Both the position numbers and the translations under genes were made by a program. Shown here one piece after another: positions 9,162 through 15,824 of a stretch of DNA of 64,000 bases. Each line of letters starts with the position of its first letter. Position 1 is the first letter of the stretch. This DNA comes from Longimicrobiales bacterium. GTDB lineage: Bacteria; Gemmatimonadota; Gemmatimonadetes; Longimicrobiales; Gaopeijiaceae. The notes beneath the pieces were generated by a model. It ran no database searches. It worked only from the letters and a program-made list of their open reading frames with translations, and was not told where the DNA came from. Location of the stretch: positions 760,134-824,133 of the forward strand of contig CATQHQ010000001.1 of assembly GCA_958296005.1 (NCBI GenBank), written 5' to 3'.

Positions 9162-10883
9162 TCAGCTCCCGTTCAGGATTTCGTCGCGCACGCCGGTCAT
9201 CTCCCAGCGGACCAGCGTGACCGGGATCACGCCCGACGCATAGAACGTGTCGAAGAAGCGTTGGAGGGTGAAGGCGTCGCCCTCCTGGATCGCCCACTCG
9301 GCAATGAGCTCCTCGATCTCGATCTTGCCGGTCAGGTAGCTGGTGCCGTAGCCGGGCTGCTGCAGGTACAGGTGCTGCTCGTTGCGCACCAGCGCGGCGT
9401 CGGGGAGCCATCCTCGGGGCGTCCAGCGGGTGGAGTGGGCGACGGCCTCCTCCATGTCGAAGACGTTGCCGTGCAGGTACAGACCGCTCAAGGCGCGGGC
9501 TGCCCGCTGGGCCAACATGATCCACACCAGCTCCCGCGACCGCGGCTTCCCGGCGAAGAGCCCGGCGTGCATCATCATCTCCTCCATCCCCGTGGCCAGC
9601 CCTTCCGAGCGCGCGTCCCAGATGTTGTACAGCGACGGCACGCGGCGCACCGAGCTCGCGTGGGGCGCCTCGACCAACGTCGCCAGCTCGATCCAGTGAT
9701 GCAGGTGCGCGCGCATCACCACCGGGTCCCGGTAGTTGACTTCGCTGAAGAAGTTGCGGATCTCGCCTGGGGCAGCGGGCGTGAAGGCGCCGTTCTTGGC
9801 TCGTAGCGCCGGGTCCATGTACGCCTCGACGGTCTGGACGTCCCTCTCCTTGAGGAAGAGCATGTAGTCGTCCACGGCCTCGTTCAGCCGCCGGTCGTAC
9901 TCTTCGGGGGTGGCGATCCGCTCCAGCGGGGCGAGGTCGCGGTTGCGGTGCTCCTCCAGGCGAAGGGAAGAGTGGGCCCGGGCCAGCTCCCGCTGCATGA
10001 GGGTGACCTGCTCCTCCCACGAGTAGGAGACCAGGTGCACGTTCCGCATGTACCACGTGTAGTTCTCCCGTCCTACCCCCGACGGGCCGGTCTTCGAGTC
10101 CGCCAGCCCTTCAATCCAGTCGTGGAAGCCGAGCGTCGCCGCGTGGGCCGAGGCGATCGCCGCGTCCAAGGCGTCGCTGGTTCCCGCCACTTCTTCAGCC
10201 AGGGCGTCCAGCTCTGCGGCCTGCCGGCGGAACGAGCGGAGTCCGGCGACCCAAAGGTCGTGGGCGTTGCCGGTCAGGTTGGCACGGGCCTGCTCCAGGA
10301 GGGCGGGAACCGCGCCGATGCGGCCGGCCAGCTCGGCGGCGGCCTCGTCCGAAAGGGGGTAGTCGTACGTCCAGAGGTCGATCCAGCCGTGGATGACGGG
10401 GCCTTCGTGGGCGGGCACGTCGCTCTCTGCGGAGTAGATCGTGACGTAGAACGCCGGGTTGCGCTCCCACGGCCGGCGGACCCGGTGGTCGAAGTCGAGG
10501 CCGTTCATCTCCGCCCGCACCAAGTGCCAATCGATCTGATCGGCGACGGGCCAGCTACCGGAGTCGAGGGCGTCGAGGCGCGCCCGCCAGGCCGGGAGGG
10601 CGTCGTACTGGGCGGCCATGGCGTCGACGGAGTAGTCCGGCACGCCGTCGGTGAACTCTGGGGACTCGAACTCGCGCCACTCGGCGAAGAGAGCGGCGAG
10701 GTCGTCTGGGGTGGCGGTGGCGGCGGCGGAGTCCGGCACATCGGGCGCATCCGGAGGACCACAGGTGGCCAGGGCGATGATGAGGACCGGAGCCAGGATC
10801 GCTCCCGGGGCGGCGGCCAAGTCGGCGGCGACGGAGACCAGCCCGCGGACGTGAGACTCGAACTTCGGTTGCGGCGAGATCAT
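9162..10883 (-). CDS. DUF885-family secreted or lipoprotein-like enzyme
   Basis: A 573-residue DUF885 protein, a family related in sequence to zinc metallopeptidases but with poorly established substrates. Visible family features are the C-terminal segments EGLATGMEEMMMHAG, with a helical metal-site-like pattern, and YLQQPGYGTSYLTGKIEIE, the PGYxxSYxxGK-type motif. The N-terminus has a hydrophobic run APVLIIALATCGPP; the cysteine after LAT could be a lipid-attachment site, though Thr before Cys is not standard. The start ATG and its upstream sequence lie inside a 101-bp sequence repeated 1448 bp away, where a truncated copy of the same gene start is found. It converges on the transglycosylase gene with a 20-base gap and no terminator visible. 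Confidence 0.85.
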   Translation of the reverse strand: MISPQPKFESHVRGLVSVAADLAAAPGAILAPVLIIALATCGPPDAPDVPDSAAATATPDDLAALFAEWREFESPEFTDGVPDYSVDAMAAQYDALPAWRARLDALDSGSWPVADQIDWHLVRAEMNGLDFDHRVRRPWERNPAFYVTIYSAESDVPAHEGPVIHGWIDLWTYDYPLSDEAAAELAGRIGAVPALLEQARANLTGNAHDLWVAGLRSFRRQAAELDALAEEVAGTSDALDAAIASAHAATLGFHDWIEGLADSKTGPSGVGRENYTWYMRNVHLVSYSWEEQVTLMQRELARAHSSLRLEEHRNRDLAPLERIATPEEYDRRLNEAVDDYMLFLKERDVQTVEAYMDPALRAKNGAFTPAAPGEIRNFFSEVNYRDPVVMRAHLHHWIELATLVEAPHASSVRRVPSLYNIWDARSEGLATGMEEMMMHAGLFAGKPRSRELVWIMLAQRAARALSGLYLHGNVFDMEEAVAHSTRWTPRGWLPDAALVRNEQHLYLQQPGYGTSYLTGKIEIEELIAEWAIQEGDAFTLQRFFDTFYASGVIPVTLVRWEMTGVRDEILNGS

Positions 10884-10905
10884 CAGGAGTTCCTCCGAGT
10901 GGGAG
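10805..10905. repeat. 101-bp direct repeat, copy A
   Basis: This copy matches 12253-12353 at a constant offset of 1448 with six mismatches. The final 53 bases (10853-10905) are identical. It covers the ribosome-binding region, the start codon and the first 26 codons of the DUF885 gene. The two copies bracket a stretch of lower-GC DNA. Confidence 0.95.
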
Positions 10906-10918
10906 TCGTCAGGCGCGG

Positions 10919-11702
10919 TTGTTCACGGACCAGAAGTCCTCCGCCACGTTGGCCAAGATAAGCAACTTGTCTCCGCACGAGGCCAAGTTGGCGGACGCGG
11001 TGCGCGACGAGTCGCCGGACTTCATGCTGGACGAACTGCGCAAGAACCGGCCCGCCGTGAAGCTACATGACGTGTACGCCGTGCGCAGCGAGGACCCTGA
11101 CCTCCAGCGACGCGCACTGTCCGCCGTCAGGACCGGCAAGGCTACGCGGCTGGTTGTCGCGGTGAAGAACGAGAAGCTCCGGGACAAGCACGAGGAGATC
11201 GGCGAAGCCGCCAGGAAGCTGCCGGACACGAAGTACTCCGTCGTCTACATGGACCCGCCTTGGGACAAGATGGCACCGATCGACTTGACCGAGATGGACA
11301 TGTCGTTCGTGGCGGACACTGCGCTCCTGTTCATCTGTGTAGCACACGATAAGACAGGCACTGCTTGGCACGTGCTGAGCAAGTGGGGGTTCGAGCACGT
11401 CAGCACGATCATCTGGGACGCCAAGTGGTGGCCTGGCGGCGTCGAAGTCGGACGGCTGGGTGATGCGACGGCACGAGACGCTGTGGATCGCAGTGCGCGG
11501 CGACGTGCCCGGCCCGCCTGCGGAACTCAGGCCTCCCAGCGTGATCGCCGCCAAGAAGCGAGGAGTACGGCGGCCGAAGCCGCCCGAGTTTCGAGCAGTG
11601 GTGGAGAAGATGACGCCGGGTCACGACGGCGCGAGGATCGGCCTGTTCGTGGGCGAGGCCTCAGGTTGGGACACGTGGGACGTTTCAAGGGAAAGGCCTT
11701 GA
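10919..11702 (+). pseudogene. MT-A70-family DNA N6-adenine methyltransferase, frameshifted and truncated
   Basis: The first part, in the frame of 10919, carries an N-terminal ParB-like helical region (SSATLAKISNLSPHEAKL) and the catalytic motif YMDPPWDKM, then a strand ending TIIWDAKWW. The family's C-terminal half continues one frame over, from about 11430-11460: RRHETLWIAVRG, then KPPEF and GWDTWDVSRE, equivalent to the HE.L...RG, HS.KP.EF and GWD.WGNE motifs of phage and mobile-element MT-A70 enzymes. The ELFAR element is degenerate (GLFVG). The N-terminus also seems cut by the repeat boundary. A single-base shift explains the break, so assembly error is possible, but truncation plus motif decay favours a real pseudogene. 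Confidence 0.75.
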
Positions 11703-11781
11703 CAACCCTGTTATATTGCCTCGCGGTGGGCGATGCGTTCAAATTGATGTTGCCTGCAAGAAATGGGCTGGATACTTTTCG

Positions 11782-11973
11782 ATGAAAGTCGAAGCGAACC
11801 GTGCCAGGGCCATCACGACCATCAGGCTGCGGCCACAACCAAATGGTAACGGCACCGTAGTGATCATGTCCATCGACGCATGGCATCCCGACCGATATGT
11901 GCAATGCCAAGAAACAGCAACTGCTTACCGCAGAATTCAAGATATTCTCGACCCCACAAGGAGGACAAGATGA
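11782..11973 (+). CDS. Small hypothetical protein in the insert
   Basis: I do not recognise this 63-residue product (begins MKVEANRARAIT). It shows a possible strand-rich middle, TVVIMSIDAW, and a basic end. There is no good ribosome site before the ATG; a TTG at 11716 is an alternative start in the same frame. Its stop overlaps the ATG of the next gene by four bases (ATGA), the arrangement expected for translational coupling, which is the main support for it being real. Confidence 0.35.
   Translation: MKVEANRARAITTIRLRPQPNGNGTVVIMSIDAWHPDRYVQCQETATAYRRIQDILDPTRRTR
11958..11964 (+). promoter_or_regulatory. Strong Shine-Dalgarno AAGGAGG
   Basis: A full-consensus AAGGAGG lies five bases before the ATG at 11970. 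It decides the start of the small YozE-like gene and is among the best ribosome sites in the window, suggesting the gene was selected for expression. Confidence 0.7.
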
Positions 11974-12209
11974 CCATCGGTGACGTGTACGCCTCGGCCT
12001 CATTCTGGGAATGGGTGAACGAGCAGGAAGTGACTGACGACCCCGCTGGAGACTTCATAGACGACACCAAGACCGTCTACAGTGTTGGCGGAGCAAAAAG
12101 GTGTCAGTGGCGCATCTACGGCACAAGCCGTGCTGTACGTGCGGCTGGGCGAGAGGTTGCCACACGATGGCTAAAGCTTTCGGGAAAAAAGCTCACCCCG
12201 GAAGACTAG
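11970..12209 (+). CDS. YozE SAM-like domain small protein (phage-type)
   Basis: The 79-residue product has the segment SFWEWVNEQEVTDDPAGDF, which fits the pattern F..W...Q...DDP.GD of the YozE SAM-like fold (DUF1250). This fold is found in Firmicutes YozE and in many actinobacterial and phage small proteins of unknown function. The C-terminal half, with a basic segment near residues 55-75, is not recognised. The start is fixed by AAGGAGG five bases upstream and by the ATGA overlap with the preceding small frame. Base composition is lower in GC than neighbouring genes, consistent with transfer. The end overlaps the stop of the DUF885 remnant on the other strand. Confidence 0.6.
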   Translation: MTIGDVYASASFWEWVNEQEVTDDPAGDFIDDTKTVYSVGGAKRCQWRIYGTSRAVRAAGREVATRWLKLSGKKLTPED

Positions 12210-12331
12210 TCGCACCCATGGCCCGCGTCGAATCGTACCGCGACATGCTCCGCCGGGGCGGCGGCCAACTGGGTGGCGACGGCGACTAGCCCGCGGACGC
12301 GAGACTCGAACTTCGGTTGCGGCGAGATCAT
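12206..12331 (-). pseudogene. Truncated 5' remnant of a second DUF885 gene
   Basis: A 41-codon frame beginning MISPQPKFESRVRGLVAVAT. It is nearly the same as the first residues of the intact DUF885 protein, with four amino-acid differences in the first 24 codons. It then diverges at AEHV and stops. The upstream 22 bases are identical to those before the intact gene, so translation signals are kept, but the rest of the 573-codon gene is absent. It is best read as the leftover of a duplicated or tandem paralogue removed when the lower-GC DNA arrived. Confidence 0.7.
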
Positions 12332-12353
12332 CAGGAGTTCCTCCGAGTGGGAG
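12253..12353. repeat. 101-bp direct repeat, copy B
   Basis: Partner of 10805-10905, 95 of 101 positions identical, with 12301-12353 a perfect 53-bp match. Five of the six differences change the encoded residues in the minus-strand reading (His to Arg, Ser to Ala, Ala to Thr, Asp to Gln); one is silent. Confidence 0.95.
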
Positions 12354-12412: not shown

Positions 12413-14473
12413 CTAGGAGACCGGCTGAGCGGCGCTCTCGTCGTTCGGCGCCTCCTCCCACGCCCACTCCCGGTCCATTACCCAGCGCTCGAACCAGTCC
12501 AGCTCGACGTTGGCCTTGTACAGGCGGTGGCGAAGCTCGCGCCAGCCGTGACCCTGGCGAGGCGCGACGTACAAGTGCGTGGGCACATCGTTGTGGCGGA
12601 GGCCGCGGAACATCTCGACCGACTGGGGCATCGGCACGCGGGCATCCTCCTCGCCGACCAGAAAGAGGGTGGGCGTCGTCACCTTCCACACCTCCCGCAG
12701 GGGCGAGTCCTGCCAGTACTGGTCGATATTCGCCCCTTCCTCCCATGGCGTCGTCCCGAACCACGGGGTCCTGTAGATGCGCACGTCGCTCTGACCGTAC
12801 ATCGACACCCAGTTGGCGGCGCCGGCGCCGGAGGACGCGGCTTTGAAGCGGTCGGTGTAGGTGACGATCTTGTTGGTCATGTGGCCGCCGGCGCTCCAGC
12901 CCATCTTGGCCATGCGGTCGCCGTCCACGAGTCCCTGCGCGATCAGGTGGTCCACGCCCGCCATCACGTCCCTGTGCGCCTGGTCGAAGTAGTTGCCCAC
13001 CATGTTGCGCAGAAAGTCGTCGCCGTAGCCGGTGCTGCCGCGGTAGTTGGGCTTGAGGACGAAGTAGCCCAGCGACGTCAGCACGGTCTCGTAGTTGTTG
13101 GACGACGGAAAGCGGAAGCGGTCCGACGACGCCGGTCCCCCGTGGGTCTGCACGACCAGCGGATGGCGCGCGTCGCTTGCGTAATCCAGCGGGTAGTAGA
13201 GGAGCCCTTCGACCGTGACGCCGTCCTCCCCCGGCCACTGGATCGCCTCCACCTCGGGCAGGCGGAAGCGGTCGGCGACGTCGGCGTTGACGGTGGTCGC
13301 TCTGGCCATTGCGCCGCCCGATCCGTCGAGCAGCCATACGTCGCCGGGTTCGGTGGGGCCGACCACGGTGACGGCGATCCGGTCCAGCGCGGGCCGGTAG
13401 TTGCCCAGCGACACGCTGTGGTTGCCCCGGGTGATCTGAGTGGCGGTTGCCGACGCCACGTTCACCGAGAACAACTCTTGGCGCACGCCCGTGTTGGCCT
13501 GCACGAGAACCGTCGACGCGTCCTTGCCCCAAACCGCTTGGCTGACTTCGTAGGGGAAGTCGCGGATGACCGGCCGGTAGGCGGCGTTGTCCCCGCCCTC
13601 GCCGCTCGCCGAGGCCAAGTACACCTTGTCGTTGTAGTAGAACTCGCCGTCGGCGTTGGAGTCGGCGCGGAAGACGACCCACTGGTTGTCCGGCGACAGC
13701 TCGGCGCCGTACTCGGGGACGGCGTTGCGGGTGATCTGGCGTGCCTCGGTGCCGTCGGCGTTCATCACCCAGACCTCGCCGTCGTCGTTGTCGTCGAAGA
13801 GGGGCGACGGTCCCCTGTCGTATGCGACCATGGCGCCGTCCCGGGACAGCCTGTACTCGTTGACCGAGTAGTCGCCGTCGGTGACCCGCGCGCTTGCGCC
13901 GTCCGCCAGCGACGCCCGCCAGAGGTGCCGCTGCGTGTAGTTCTCGTCGAAGGCGTAGACGTCGTCGCCCGCGGTCTTCCGCTCCTTCTCCTCCTCCGTC
14001 ATGTCGTCGGACGCCAGGAAGAACAGCCCGTCGCCGGTGGGCGCCCAAGCGATCGCCGACACCGCCGTCGGGTGGTCCGTGAGCCGCCGCGCTTCGCCGC
14101 CCCGGGTGTCGAGGACGTAGATCTGGCTGGCCTCGTCGTCTCCTCGGGTGGCGGTGAAGGCGACCAGCGAGCCGTCGGGGGACCATCTGGGGCTCGACTC
14201 CCCGTTCTCGCCCGCGGTGAGGCGCAGGTCGGGGCCGTCCCCAACGGTGGCCAGCCAGATGTGGCCGACCGTCCGGTTCTTCTCCCAGTCGGCGTCGGAA
14301 CGGACGTACAGGACGCGAGTTCCGTCGGGGCTCAGCCGGGGCGACGAGACCGACGGCACGTTGATCAGGTCCACGATCCCGGGCGCCCGCTGGGCGGCGG
14401 CTGGGGTGGGGGACAGGAGGACGGCGATGGCGGCCGCAGTCGTAGCGACGACGGACGGGAGGGAGCGGATCAT
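12413..14473 (-). CDS. S9-family serine peptidase (dipeptidyl/acylaminoacyl peptidase type)
   Basis: Exported serine peptidase, 686 residues. A signal peptide MIRSLPSVVATTAAAIAVLL ends in AAAQ. A WD40/TolB-like beta-propeller follows, with repeated elements of the SPDG type (SPRLSPDGTRVLYV, SPRWSPDGSLVAF). The C-terminal alpha/beta-hydrolase domain has the nucleophile Ser527 in GWSAGG, the acid Asp610 in GEEDARVP and His642 in QGHGWRE, all intact. The oxyanion region HGGPASSD is also normal. Such enzymes remove dipeptides or acylated residues from peptides in the periplasm. The start ATG at 14473 gives the proper signal peptide; the longer frame upstream is not used. It lies 81 bases from the relic DUF885 copy. 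Confidence 0.93.
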   Translation of the reverse strand: MIRSLPSVVATTAAAIAVLLSPTPAAAQRAPGIVDLINVPSVSSPRLSPDGTRVLYVRSDADWEKNRTVGHIWLATVGDGPDLRLTAGENGESSPRWSPDGSLVAFTATRGDDEASQIYVLDTRGGEARRLTDHPTAVSAIAWAPTGDGLFFLASDDMTEEEKERKTAGDDVYAFDENYTQRHLWRASLADGASARVTDGDYSVNEYRLSRDGAMVAYDRGPSPLFDDNDDGEVWVMNADGTEARQITRNAVPEYGAELSPDNQWVVFRADSNADGEFYYNDKVYLASASGEGGDNAAYRPVIRDFPYEVSQAVWGKDASTVLVQANTGVRQELFSVNVASATATQITRGNHSVSLGNYRPALDRIAVTVVGPTEPGDVWLLDGSGGAMARATTVNADVADRFRLPEVEAIQWPGEDGVTVEGLLYYPLDYASDARHPLVVQTHGGPASSDRFRFPSSNNYETVLTSLGYFVLKPNYRGSTGYGDDFLRNMVGNYFDQAHRDVMAGVDHLIAQGLVDGDRMAKMGWSAGGHMTNKIVTYTDRFKAASSGAGAANWVSMYGQSDVRIYRTPWFGTTPWEEGANIDQYWQDSPLREVWKVTTPTLFLVGEEDARVPMPQSVEMFRGLRHNDVPTHLYVAPRQGHGWRELRHRLYKANVELDWFERWVMDREWAWEEAPNDESAAQPVS

Positions 14474-14555
14474 GGCTGGACCTCGGGCGGGCGGCGGTTG
14501 CGCGACGGGACAAAGTCCGCACCGGCCGGACGCTCCGCAACTCGACCCTCGGCGT

Positions 14556-15824
14556 TCAAGCCACGTCGCCTCCAGCCTCCCACCACCGCCCCGGCGCCAT
14601 CCGCTTGCCACGTCCCTGCACCCGATCCAGCCACAGCGCCAAGCGCCGCAGCGGCGTCCCGGCGAGCCATTGCCACGCCCGGTGCCGCCAGCGAGCGTAG
14701 TCGCGGTTGTAGGGACAGACGCGGACGCAGATCGCGCAGTCCGTGTTCAGGTTGGACCAGAAGCGGAAGCACTTCTCCGCGTCGGTCGTCCACTTCTTGA
14801 CGCCCTGGATGTTGGAGCGGTTGTGCACGACGGTGGAGGGGCGCCCTCCGTCGATCGCCTTGGCCGGGCACGCGTCGGTGCACGCCCTGCAGATGTCGCA
14901 TGTCTCTTCGACGCCGAAGCGCAGCGGCTGGTCGTGGGCCAGCGGCAGGTCGGTGAAGATCTTGCCCAGGCGAACCCGGGGGCCGAACTGCGGTGTGATC
15001 AGCAGACCGTGCCGACCGTACTCGCCGAGCCCGGCCTTGACGGCGAAGGGGATCGCCAGCGCCGAGTCGTTCATCGTTGCCACCGCCCGGTACCCGAGGT
15101 TGGTGACGAACTGGGCGATCGACAGCAGCACGATCGTGTCCCGCGAGTAGCCGGCCCCCGTCGCGGCCCCGCTGAGCGCCGACGGCGCGGTGCGCAGCAG
15201 ATCCCGGTCCATCGACTGGGCCACCACAATCACGTTCTTCAGGTCACCCGACAGCTCTTGCGGCTTCTCTTCCTCCTGCTCGCGAGCGTAGTTGTGGGTG
15301 TATACCCAGCGCTCGTCGTAGCCGGTGACGCCCACCAAGTCGGCCCCCAGCGTCTTGGCCGCCCGCTTGAGCTGCCGGGCCATCTCTTCCGGCGACTCCA
15401 CCGGCGCGCGTCCCCCGGGGCCCTCGCGAACCGCCGTGTACGGGTCGAGGAAGCCCTCCCGTCGGTCGGCGCCCTCGTGAAGCTCGGCGAAGACGTCGGT
15501 CACGTGCCACGAGGCGTTGCGCAGCGCGTAGTCCCGCCGGTTGAAGCCGTCGGCGCTCCGCCACTTCATCTTGGGCGTGCGGTAGGTCTCGTAGAACATG
15601 TCGGAACGGTGGCTTCGCACCGACGGGTCCCAGAACGAGCGGCAGAAGACGTCGTCCCTCTGGGAGAACCGCTCGAACTCCGGCCCGACCTGGAAGCCGG
15701 CCTCCTCGTCGGTCGCGGTGGCGGCCGCAGAGCCGTCGCGGACCGCCGGTCGACCGCTGGACCCGGCGTCCTCCGCGGCCGCCCGCCGGCCGCCCTCTAG
15801 ACTCGGTAGTAGTCGCGGTACCAT
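14556..15824 (-). CDS. Reductive-dehalogenase-like cobalamin/double [4Fe-4S] protein
   Basis: The 422-residue product ends in a reductive dehalogenase (RdhA)-type iron-sulfur region. Cys309, 312, 315 and 319 lie in CDICRACTDACP; then comes the linker NIQGVKKWTTDAEKC; then Cys352, 363, 366 and 370 end in CAICVRVCPYN. The spacing and the GVKKW element match RdhA rather than QueG. The N-terminus has FERFSQRDDVFCRSFWD, like the RFDQRDTxF motif of non-respiratory RdhA homologues. No Tat signal (RRxFxK) and no RdhB anchor gene are present. The ATG at 15824 overlaps the upstream epimerase by 28 bases; no later ATG, GTG or TTG keeps the conserved N-terminus. Substrate is unknown; dehalogenation is inferred from family only. 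Confidence 0.82.
   Translation of the reverse strand: MVPRLLPSLEGGRRAAAEDAGSSGRPAVRDGSAAATATDEEAGFQVGPEFERFSQRDDVFCRSFWDPSVRSHRSDMFYETYRTPKMKWRSADGFNRRDYALRNASWHVTDVFAELHEGADRREGFLDPYTAVREGPGGRAPVESPEEMARQLKRAAKTLGADLVGVTGYDERWVYTHNYAREQEEEKPQELSGDLKNVIVVAQSMDRDLLRTAPSALSGAATGAGYSRDTIVLLSIAQFVTNLGYRAVATMNDSALAIPFAVKAGLGEYGRHGLLITPQFGPRVRLGKIFTDLPLAHDQPLRFGVEETCDICRACTDACPAKAIDGGRPSTVVHNRSNIQGVKKWTTDAEKCFRFWSNLNTDCAICVRVCPYNRDYARWRHRAWQWLAGTPLRRLALWLDRVQGRGKRMAPGRWWEAGGDVA

Follow-up and report, generated by a model that had tools for sequence, protein, structure and literature searches.

The question raised by this locus is how 1.35 kb of atypical DNA came to lie between two copies of the beginning of one gene. 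The window, the 64-kb stretch of a Longimicrobiales genome analysed here, contains an intact DUF885 gene (9162–10883, minus strand; Pfam PF05960, E = 2e-27) that encodes a likely lipoprotein of 573 aa and whose 5′ end forms one member of a pair of direct repeats (10805–10905 and 12253–12353, 101 nt each, 95/101 identical). The match gains 5 bp on the gene side if a 2-bp gap is allowed. This pair is far beyond chance expectation, and there are no other long (at least 40 nt) direct repeats in the window. The initial annotation described the repeats correctly: the copies differ at six positions (10821, 10823, 10826, 10835, 10839 and 10852), share a 53-bp perfect run (10853–10905) and contain a ribosome-binding site followed by the first DUF885 codons, which we count as 26.

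The two copies have different surroundings. The gene-linked copy (10805–10905, minus strand) comprises DUF885 codons 26 to 1, including the ATG at 10883 that was chosen independently by our home-made gene caller, together with the ribosome-binding site GGAGGA and 22 bp of upstream sequence. The orphan copy (12253–12353, minus strand) has the ribosome-binding site, an ATG at 12331 and 26 codons, but the rest of the gene is missing; its reading frame is 41 codons long before a stop. Upstream of the two starts, the flanking sequences are mutually unrelated. The repeats have a host-like GC content (0.693) and, in a search of the 3.06-Mb genome, only two copies of the 101-bp sequence were found, both in the window (E = 2.5e-47 and 3.4e-39); the next-best match had an E-value of 5e-4 over 26 bp. 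The occurrence of only two copies rules out a dispersed genomic element. No tRNA gene or Rfam element was found in the repeat, and an integron attC site was rejected, since the folding of the repeat is not better than that of shuffled sequences (z = +1.5). A transposon target-site duplication, which the initial annotation had rightly dismissed, is ruled out by the 101-bp length, the 6% divergence, the gene-start content and the lack of a transposase among the ORFs.

The DNA between the repeats (10906–12252, 1347 bp, not assigned to a strand) is, as had been noted, visibly poorer in GC than its surroundings: no other 1.35-kb stretch of the window has a GC content as low as its 0.607 (window mean 0.690, s.d. 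0.022), which breaks down into 0.643 for positions 10906–11710 and 0.554 for positions 11711–12252. Directly abutting the left repeat is the 5′ part of an adenine methyltransferase gene of the MT-A70/phrog_359 type (10907–11455, plus strand), which has the DPPW motif and lacks its N-terminus; the second part follows in another frame (11442–11702, plus strand) and is thus frameshifted. In profile searches, both halves match successive positions of phrog_359, a family of phage DNA methyltransferases (E = 1.4e-5 for the first part; E = 4e-4, positions 220–290, for the second), while the MT-A70 score is weak, under Pfam's cut-off. Two further small ORFs on the plus strand (11716–11973; 11880–12209, 109 aa) match no family that was tried. 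The 'phage-type genes' reported earlier are therefore reduced to one broken methyltransferase. The insert is foreign and dead, having decayed by truncation and frameshift.

There was no match to the DNA of the insert in about 98 related genomes or elsewhere in those parts of its own genome that were sampled, and nothing similar to its proteins in the same related genomes. A candidate donor was sought among phages, plasmids and viral contigs, with nothing beyond the weak methyltransferase match, and the methyltransferase had no relative in the viral contigs. No donor that carries a divergent start allele next to the insert was found in the relatives, phages, plasmids or viral contigs. The same genome does encode a second phrog_359 gene (C2:87326), which has no DNA similarity to the methyltransferase of the insert.

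On the other side of the orphan start lies an S9-family peptidase gene (12413–14611, minus strand; Pfam Peptidase_S9, E = 2e-46), whose 3′ end faces that start and is separated from the orphan ATG by 82 bp. This gene is the probable original upstream neighbour of DUF885. Before the insertion, the DUF885 start would probably have been located 82 bp past the S9 stop codon, so the two genes were probably co-transcribed. DUF885 is now 1.35 kb away from the S9 gene, with mostly oppositely oriented debris in between, and the only promoter-like match on the DUF885 strand (11872–11843) is not significant. The consequence for the window is that a dead insert has parted DUF885 from its probable operon partner.

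Because the second phrog_359 gene adjoined another set of diverged direct repeats, we surveyed 1.28 Mb (about 42%) of the same genome and 0.4 Mb of each of three relatives for comparable scars, with gene positions from the home-made gene caller. The genome contains several such scars: other DNA, often of low GC content, is bracketed by an intact gene and an orphaned fragment of it. The closest and cleanest parallel to the window locus is L186:7767–9834 (G000:C2:650000–669999), where a 1.7-kb insert with a GC content of 0.582 and a DUF1828 gene separates an intact GntR/FCD gene from an orphaned copy of its 5′ end (179 bp, 91% identity). The orphan differs from the intact GntR gene by an in-frame 51-bp difference and one frameshift, and the former indicates that both copies had evolved as genes. 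L171, L178 and L148 are looser parallels. L171:9730–14140 (G000:C1:500000–519999) holds a Fic gene start and pieces of a helicase gene, representing a partly decayed duplication of a helicase–Fic pair, and L178 has an rsmB-like gene start together with a duplicated neighbour. At L148:2021–4018 and L166:12470–14539 (G000:C1) an Eco57I-type methylase gene is represented by an orphan of its first 19 codons (57 bp, 89% identity); PIN-like and HTH/IrrE genes lie between the L148 orphan and its partner, and a full-length paralogue (70%) is found about 7.5 kb away. At L142:1–8490 (G000:C2:78000–97900), a low-GC insert is surrounded by parts of Rpn, M20 peptidase and multicopper oxidase genes that are duplicated in diverged form. 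Two genes in that insert share a strand and may form a defence pair, one a TOPRIM-like ORF and the other apparently encoding an ATPase. Decayed tandem duplications are also present at L150 and L174. Near older duplications of 90–95% identity, the latter region has 632-bp direct repeats that are 99.7% identical (L174:9544–10175 and 13438–14069; G000:C1:700000–719999), which suggests recent gene conversion or duplication. The relatives have a few comparable scars (L217, L232 and L235), and one of them (G039) has almost none.

These parallels bear on whether the arrangement in the window might be an assembly artefact, the joining of two contigs from mixed metagenome strains. The closest genomes are metagenome-assembled, and alleles that are 94% alike could in principle stem from two strains. 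However, the genome consists of only two contigs, with 92% completeness and 0.8% contamination, an assembler would have found no shared sequence to join on at the junction between orphan codon 26 and the insert, and similar scars occur at other loci. We consider an artefact highly improbable.

The survey also gives some weight to a proposal of the initial annotation, that a tandem DUF885 paralogue has been replaced by foreign DNA. In this scheme, DUF885 (or a larger unit) underwent a partial tandem duplication, after which the upstream copy was lost except for 26 codons, with foreign DNA in its place. Decayed tandem duplications are common in the genome (L142, L171, L178, L150 and L174) and resemble the window in that an intact gene is preceded by an orphaned 5′ fragment; for L148, L171, L178 and L142, decayed tandem paralogues are the better reading, which raises the standing of this alternative. 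The methylase of the L148 orphan has its further paralogue nearby, and one relative (G034) encodes tandem, distant paralogues of DUF885. In contrast to such duplications, the window has no other piece of the gene: no trace of the DUF885 body or of an S9-gene remnant was found in the insert, which is unrelated to its flanks, and the dissimilar sequences upstream of the two starts likewise argue against a duplicated unit. The scheme also needs duplication, deletion and insertion at one spot.

Comparison with related genomes does not favour a lost paralogue either. DUF885 orthologues are found in many Gemmatimonadota relatives (56–82% identity), but their N-termini, including those of the closest ones (82%), cannot be aligned with the first ~20 residues of the protein encoded here, so that the native state of the start is unreadable from them. 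The paired start, for which the initial annotation had suggested looking in the form of an uninterrupted tandem pair, was seen upstream of DUF885 in 0 of 28 relatives' loci, with the window as the positive control; two 18-bp matches among these loci are negligible. Neither the repeat DNA nor its peptide was found in the relatives' genomes, and two weak matches (L017 and L135) were judged to be due to chance; the genes concerned are HAD-like and TonB-receptor-like. Synteny with the S9 gene was discarded as a test, S9 not being adjacent to DUF885 in the relatives.

The distribution of the differences between the repeats points in the same direction. All six mismatches fall within the gene-side 48 bp (P of about 0.01 if placed at random), which is unexpected if the copies were identical at birth, and they comprise two GC>AT, two AT>GC and two GC/CG changes, without a GC-to-AT bias. 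Unbiased and clustered mismatches are expected if the copies were already different alleles when they were joined. On balance, we regard the replacement of a tandem paralogue as rather unlikely but still a live alternative.

A further alternative is site-specific integration. The locus would then be the remnant of a prophage or integrative element inserted in the 5′ end of DUF885, with the repeats as attL and attR; attP would have carried its own version of the gene start, restoring the gene, and most of the element, including the integrase, would have been deleted later. Attachment sites in gene ends have good precedents: Rac occupies the 5′ end of ttcA, and e14 uses the 3′ end of icd, with a repeat of 163 bp (PMC6379469). 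These elements share with the window long, imperfect repeats made from a gene end, which are typical of such sites (PMC6379469), a restored gene and foreign DNA in between. The phage-type methyltransferase, the foreign GC content and the heavy decay of the insert are all consistent with such an origin, as are the direct repeats at both ends (101 bp, 94%), which by themselves are not specific.

Unlike Rac and e14, the window insert has no integrase among its ORFs, and just 1.35 kb of it is left. Genome-wide, there are only two genes with the PF00589 domain, both XerC/XerD-like (the search was for tyrosine recombinases). No tRNA gene was found in the insert, and the exact repeat core had no match in the viral contigs, where the methyltransferase also lacks relatives. 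The same anatomy is seen at unrelated genes, and one att specificity would not yield such a set of scars. Integration at an att site thus appears unlikely, if still worth weighing. The related suggestion of the initial annotation, a cassette that uses the gene start as its junction, finds no support, given the lack of an integrase in the insert and the absence of the 101-bp sequence from the rest of the genome.

We therefore favour, with a probability of roughly one half, an insertion-duplication scar produced by general recombination, without a dedicated mobile element; our reasons are the similar scars at unrelated genes, the lack of an integrase, the unbiased and clustered differences between the copies and the experimental precedent. 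The data themselves show the anatomy of the locus, its uniqueness, the foreign composition and decay of the insert and the parallel scars, whereas the donor, the order of events and the identity of the native copy are what we infer here. The incoming foreign DNA would already have been linked to a divergent DUF885-start allele of about 94% identity. It could have entered by a single crossover of a circularised fragment that carried the gene-start stretch, or by homologous recombination in the gene combined with an illegitimate join on the other side. Either way, the foreign DNA would have been placed between two copies of the gene start, of which the one joined to the gene body would keep DUF885 intact, while the resident 5′ end, broken off near codon 26, would be left orphaned beside the S9 gene. 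Truncation and frameshift would then have cost the insert, which bears the phage-type methyltransferase, some of its genes.

Several observations agree with insertion-duplication. Repeats of host composition (0.693) surround low-GC DNA (0.607), and the reading frame is intact only in the copy beside the gene body. Foreign DNA lies between direct copies of one host segment, an arrangement for which no recombinase is needed, and comparable scars involve several target genes elsewhere in the genome. In Escherichia coli conjugation, 56 of 60 clones had a partial lacZ duplication, and the 14 duplications that were sequenced (109–950 bp) were attributed to one crossover event involving a shortened circle (PMC3240628). 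These insertions resemble the window in having foreign DNA between direct copies of a ~0.1–1 kb part of a host gene, although the lacZ copies derived from a cloned fragment of identical sequence, whereas the copies in the window are 6% apart and no donor was found. For Vibrio, an orphan-leaving displacement by homology-facilitated illegitimate recombination has been proposed (PMC5361080), which has in common with the window homology on one side, an unrelated join on the other and an orphaned piece of the resident sequence. In the classical products of that process, resident DNA is deleted, whereas here the gene start is duplicated.

Several points weigh against insertion-duplication: homologous recombination across only ~100 bp at 94% identity would be inefficient, neither a donor nor an empty site was found in our searches, the orthologues do not reveal the native copy, and the parallel loci, some of them probably decayed paralogues, come from less than half of the genome. 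The candidate mechanisms are mainly recombinational insertion-duplication and, with lower probability, an integrated element that has become grounded. The locus is real, but it looks like an ordinary horizontal-transfer scar of a known kind and not like a new mobile element. Such a scar means that foreign genes can be trapped beside a working gene without a dedicated integration system, with the orphan gene start as its recognisable mark.

By hand count, the survey yielded about nine clean orphan/intact pairs, of which five involve gene 5′ ends (the window, L148, L171, L178 and L186), about two internal segments and about two 3′ ends. This amounts to a weak bias towards gene starts; the pairs are too few to claim targeting, and for several of them the decay of tandem paralogues is the better explanation. 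We accordingly find it very doubtful that small, integrase-less cassettes of symbiotic Gemmatimonadota enter preferentially at gene starts, with a replacement start that keeps the target gene alive.

The genome seems to be rich in orphan/insert scars, and it also has about ten copies of Rpn-family nuclease genes. These Rpn/YhgA-like (PF04754) genes occupy about ten loci (e.g. C2:83194–83658 and C2:861857–862324), none of them in the window. Identity among the six copies in the sampled stretches is 87–96%, and 170-bp direct repeats lie on either side of one of them (L189). In E. coli, the Rpn family promotes RecA-independent recombination (PMC5350276); a link between these nucleases and the abundance of scars is speculation. 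Very long arrays of ~762-bp tandem repeats are found inside giant ORFs at L155:1–11700 and L183:1–19979 (G000:C2), and one giant repeat-bearing ORF spans almost all of a 20-kb stretch.
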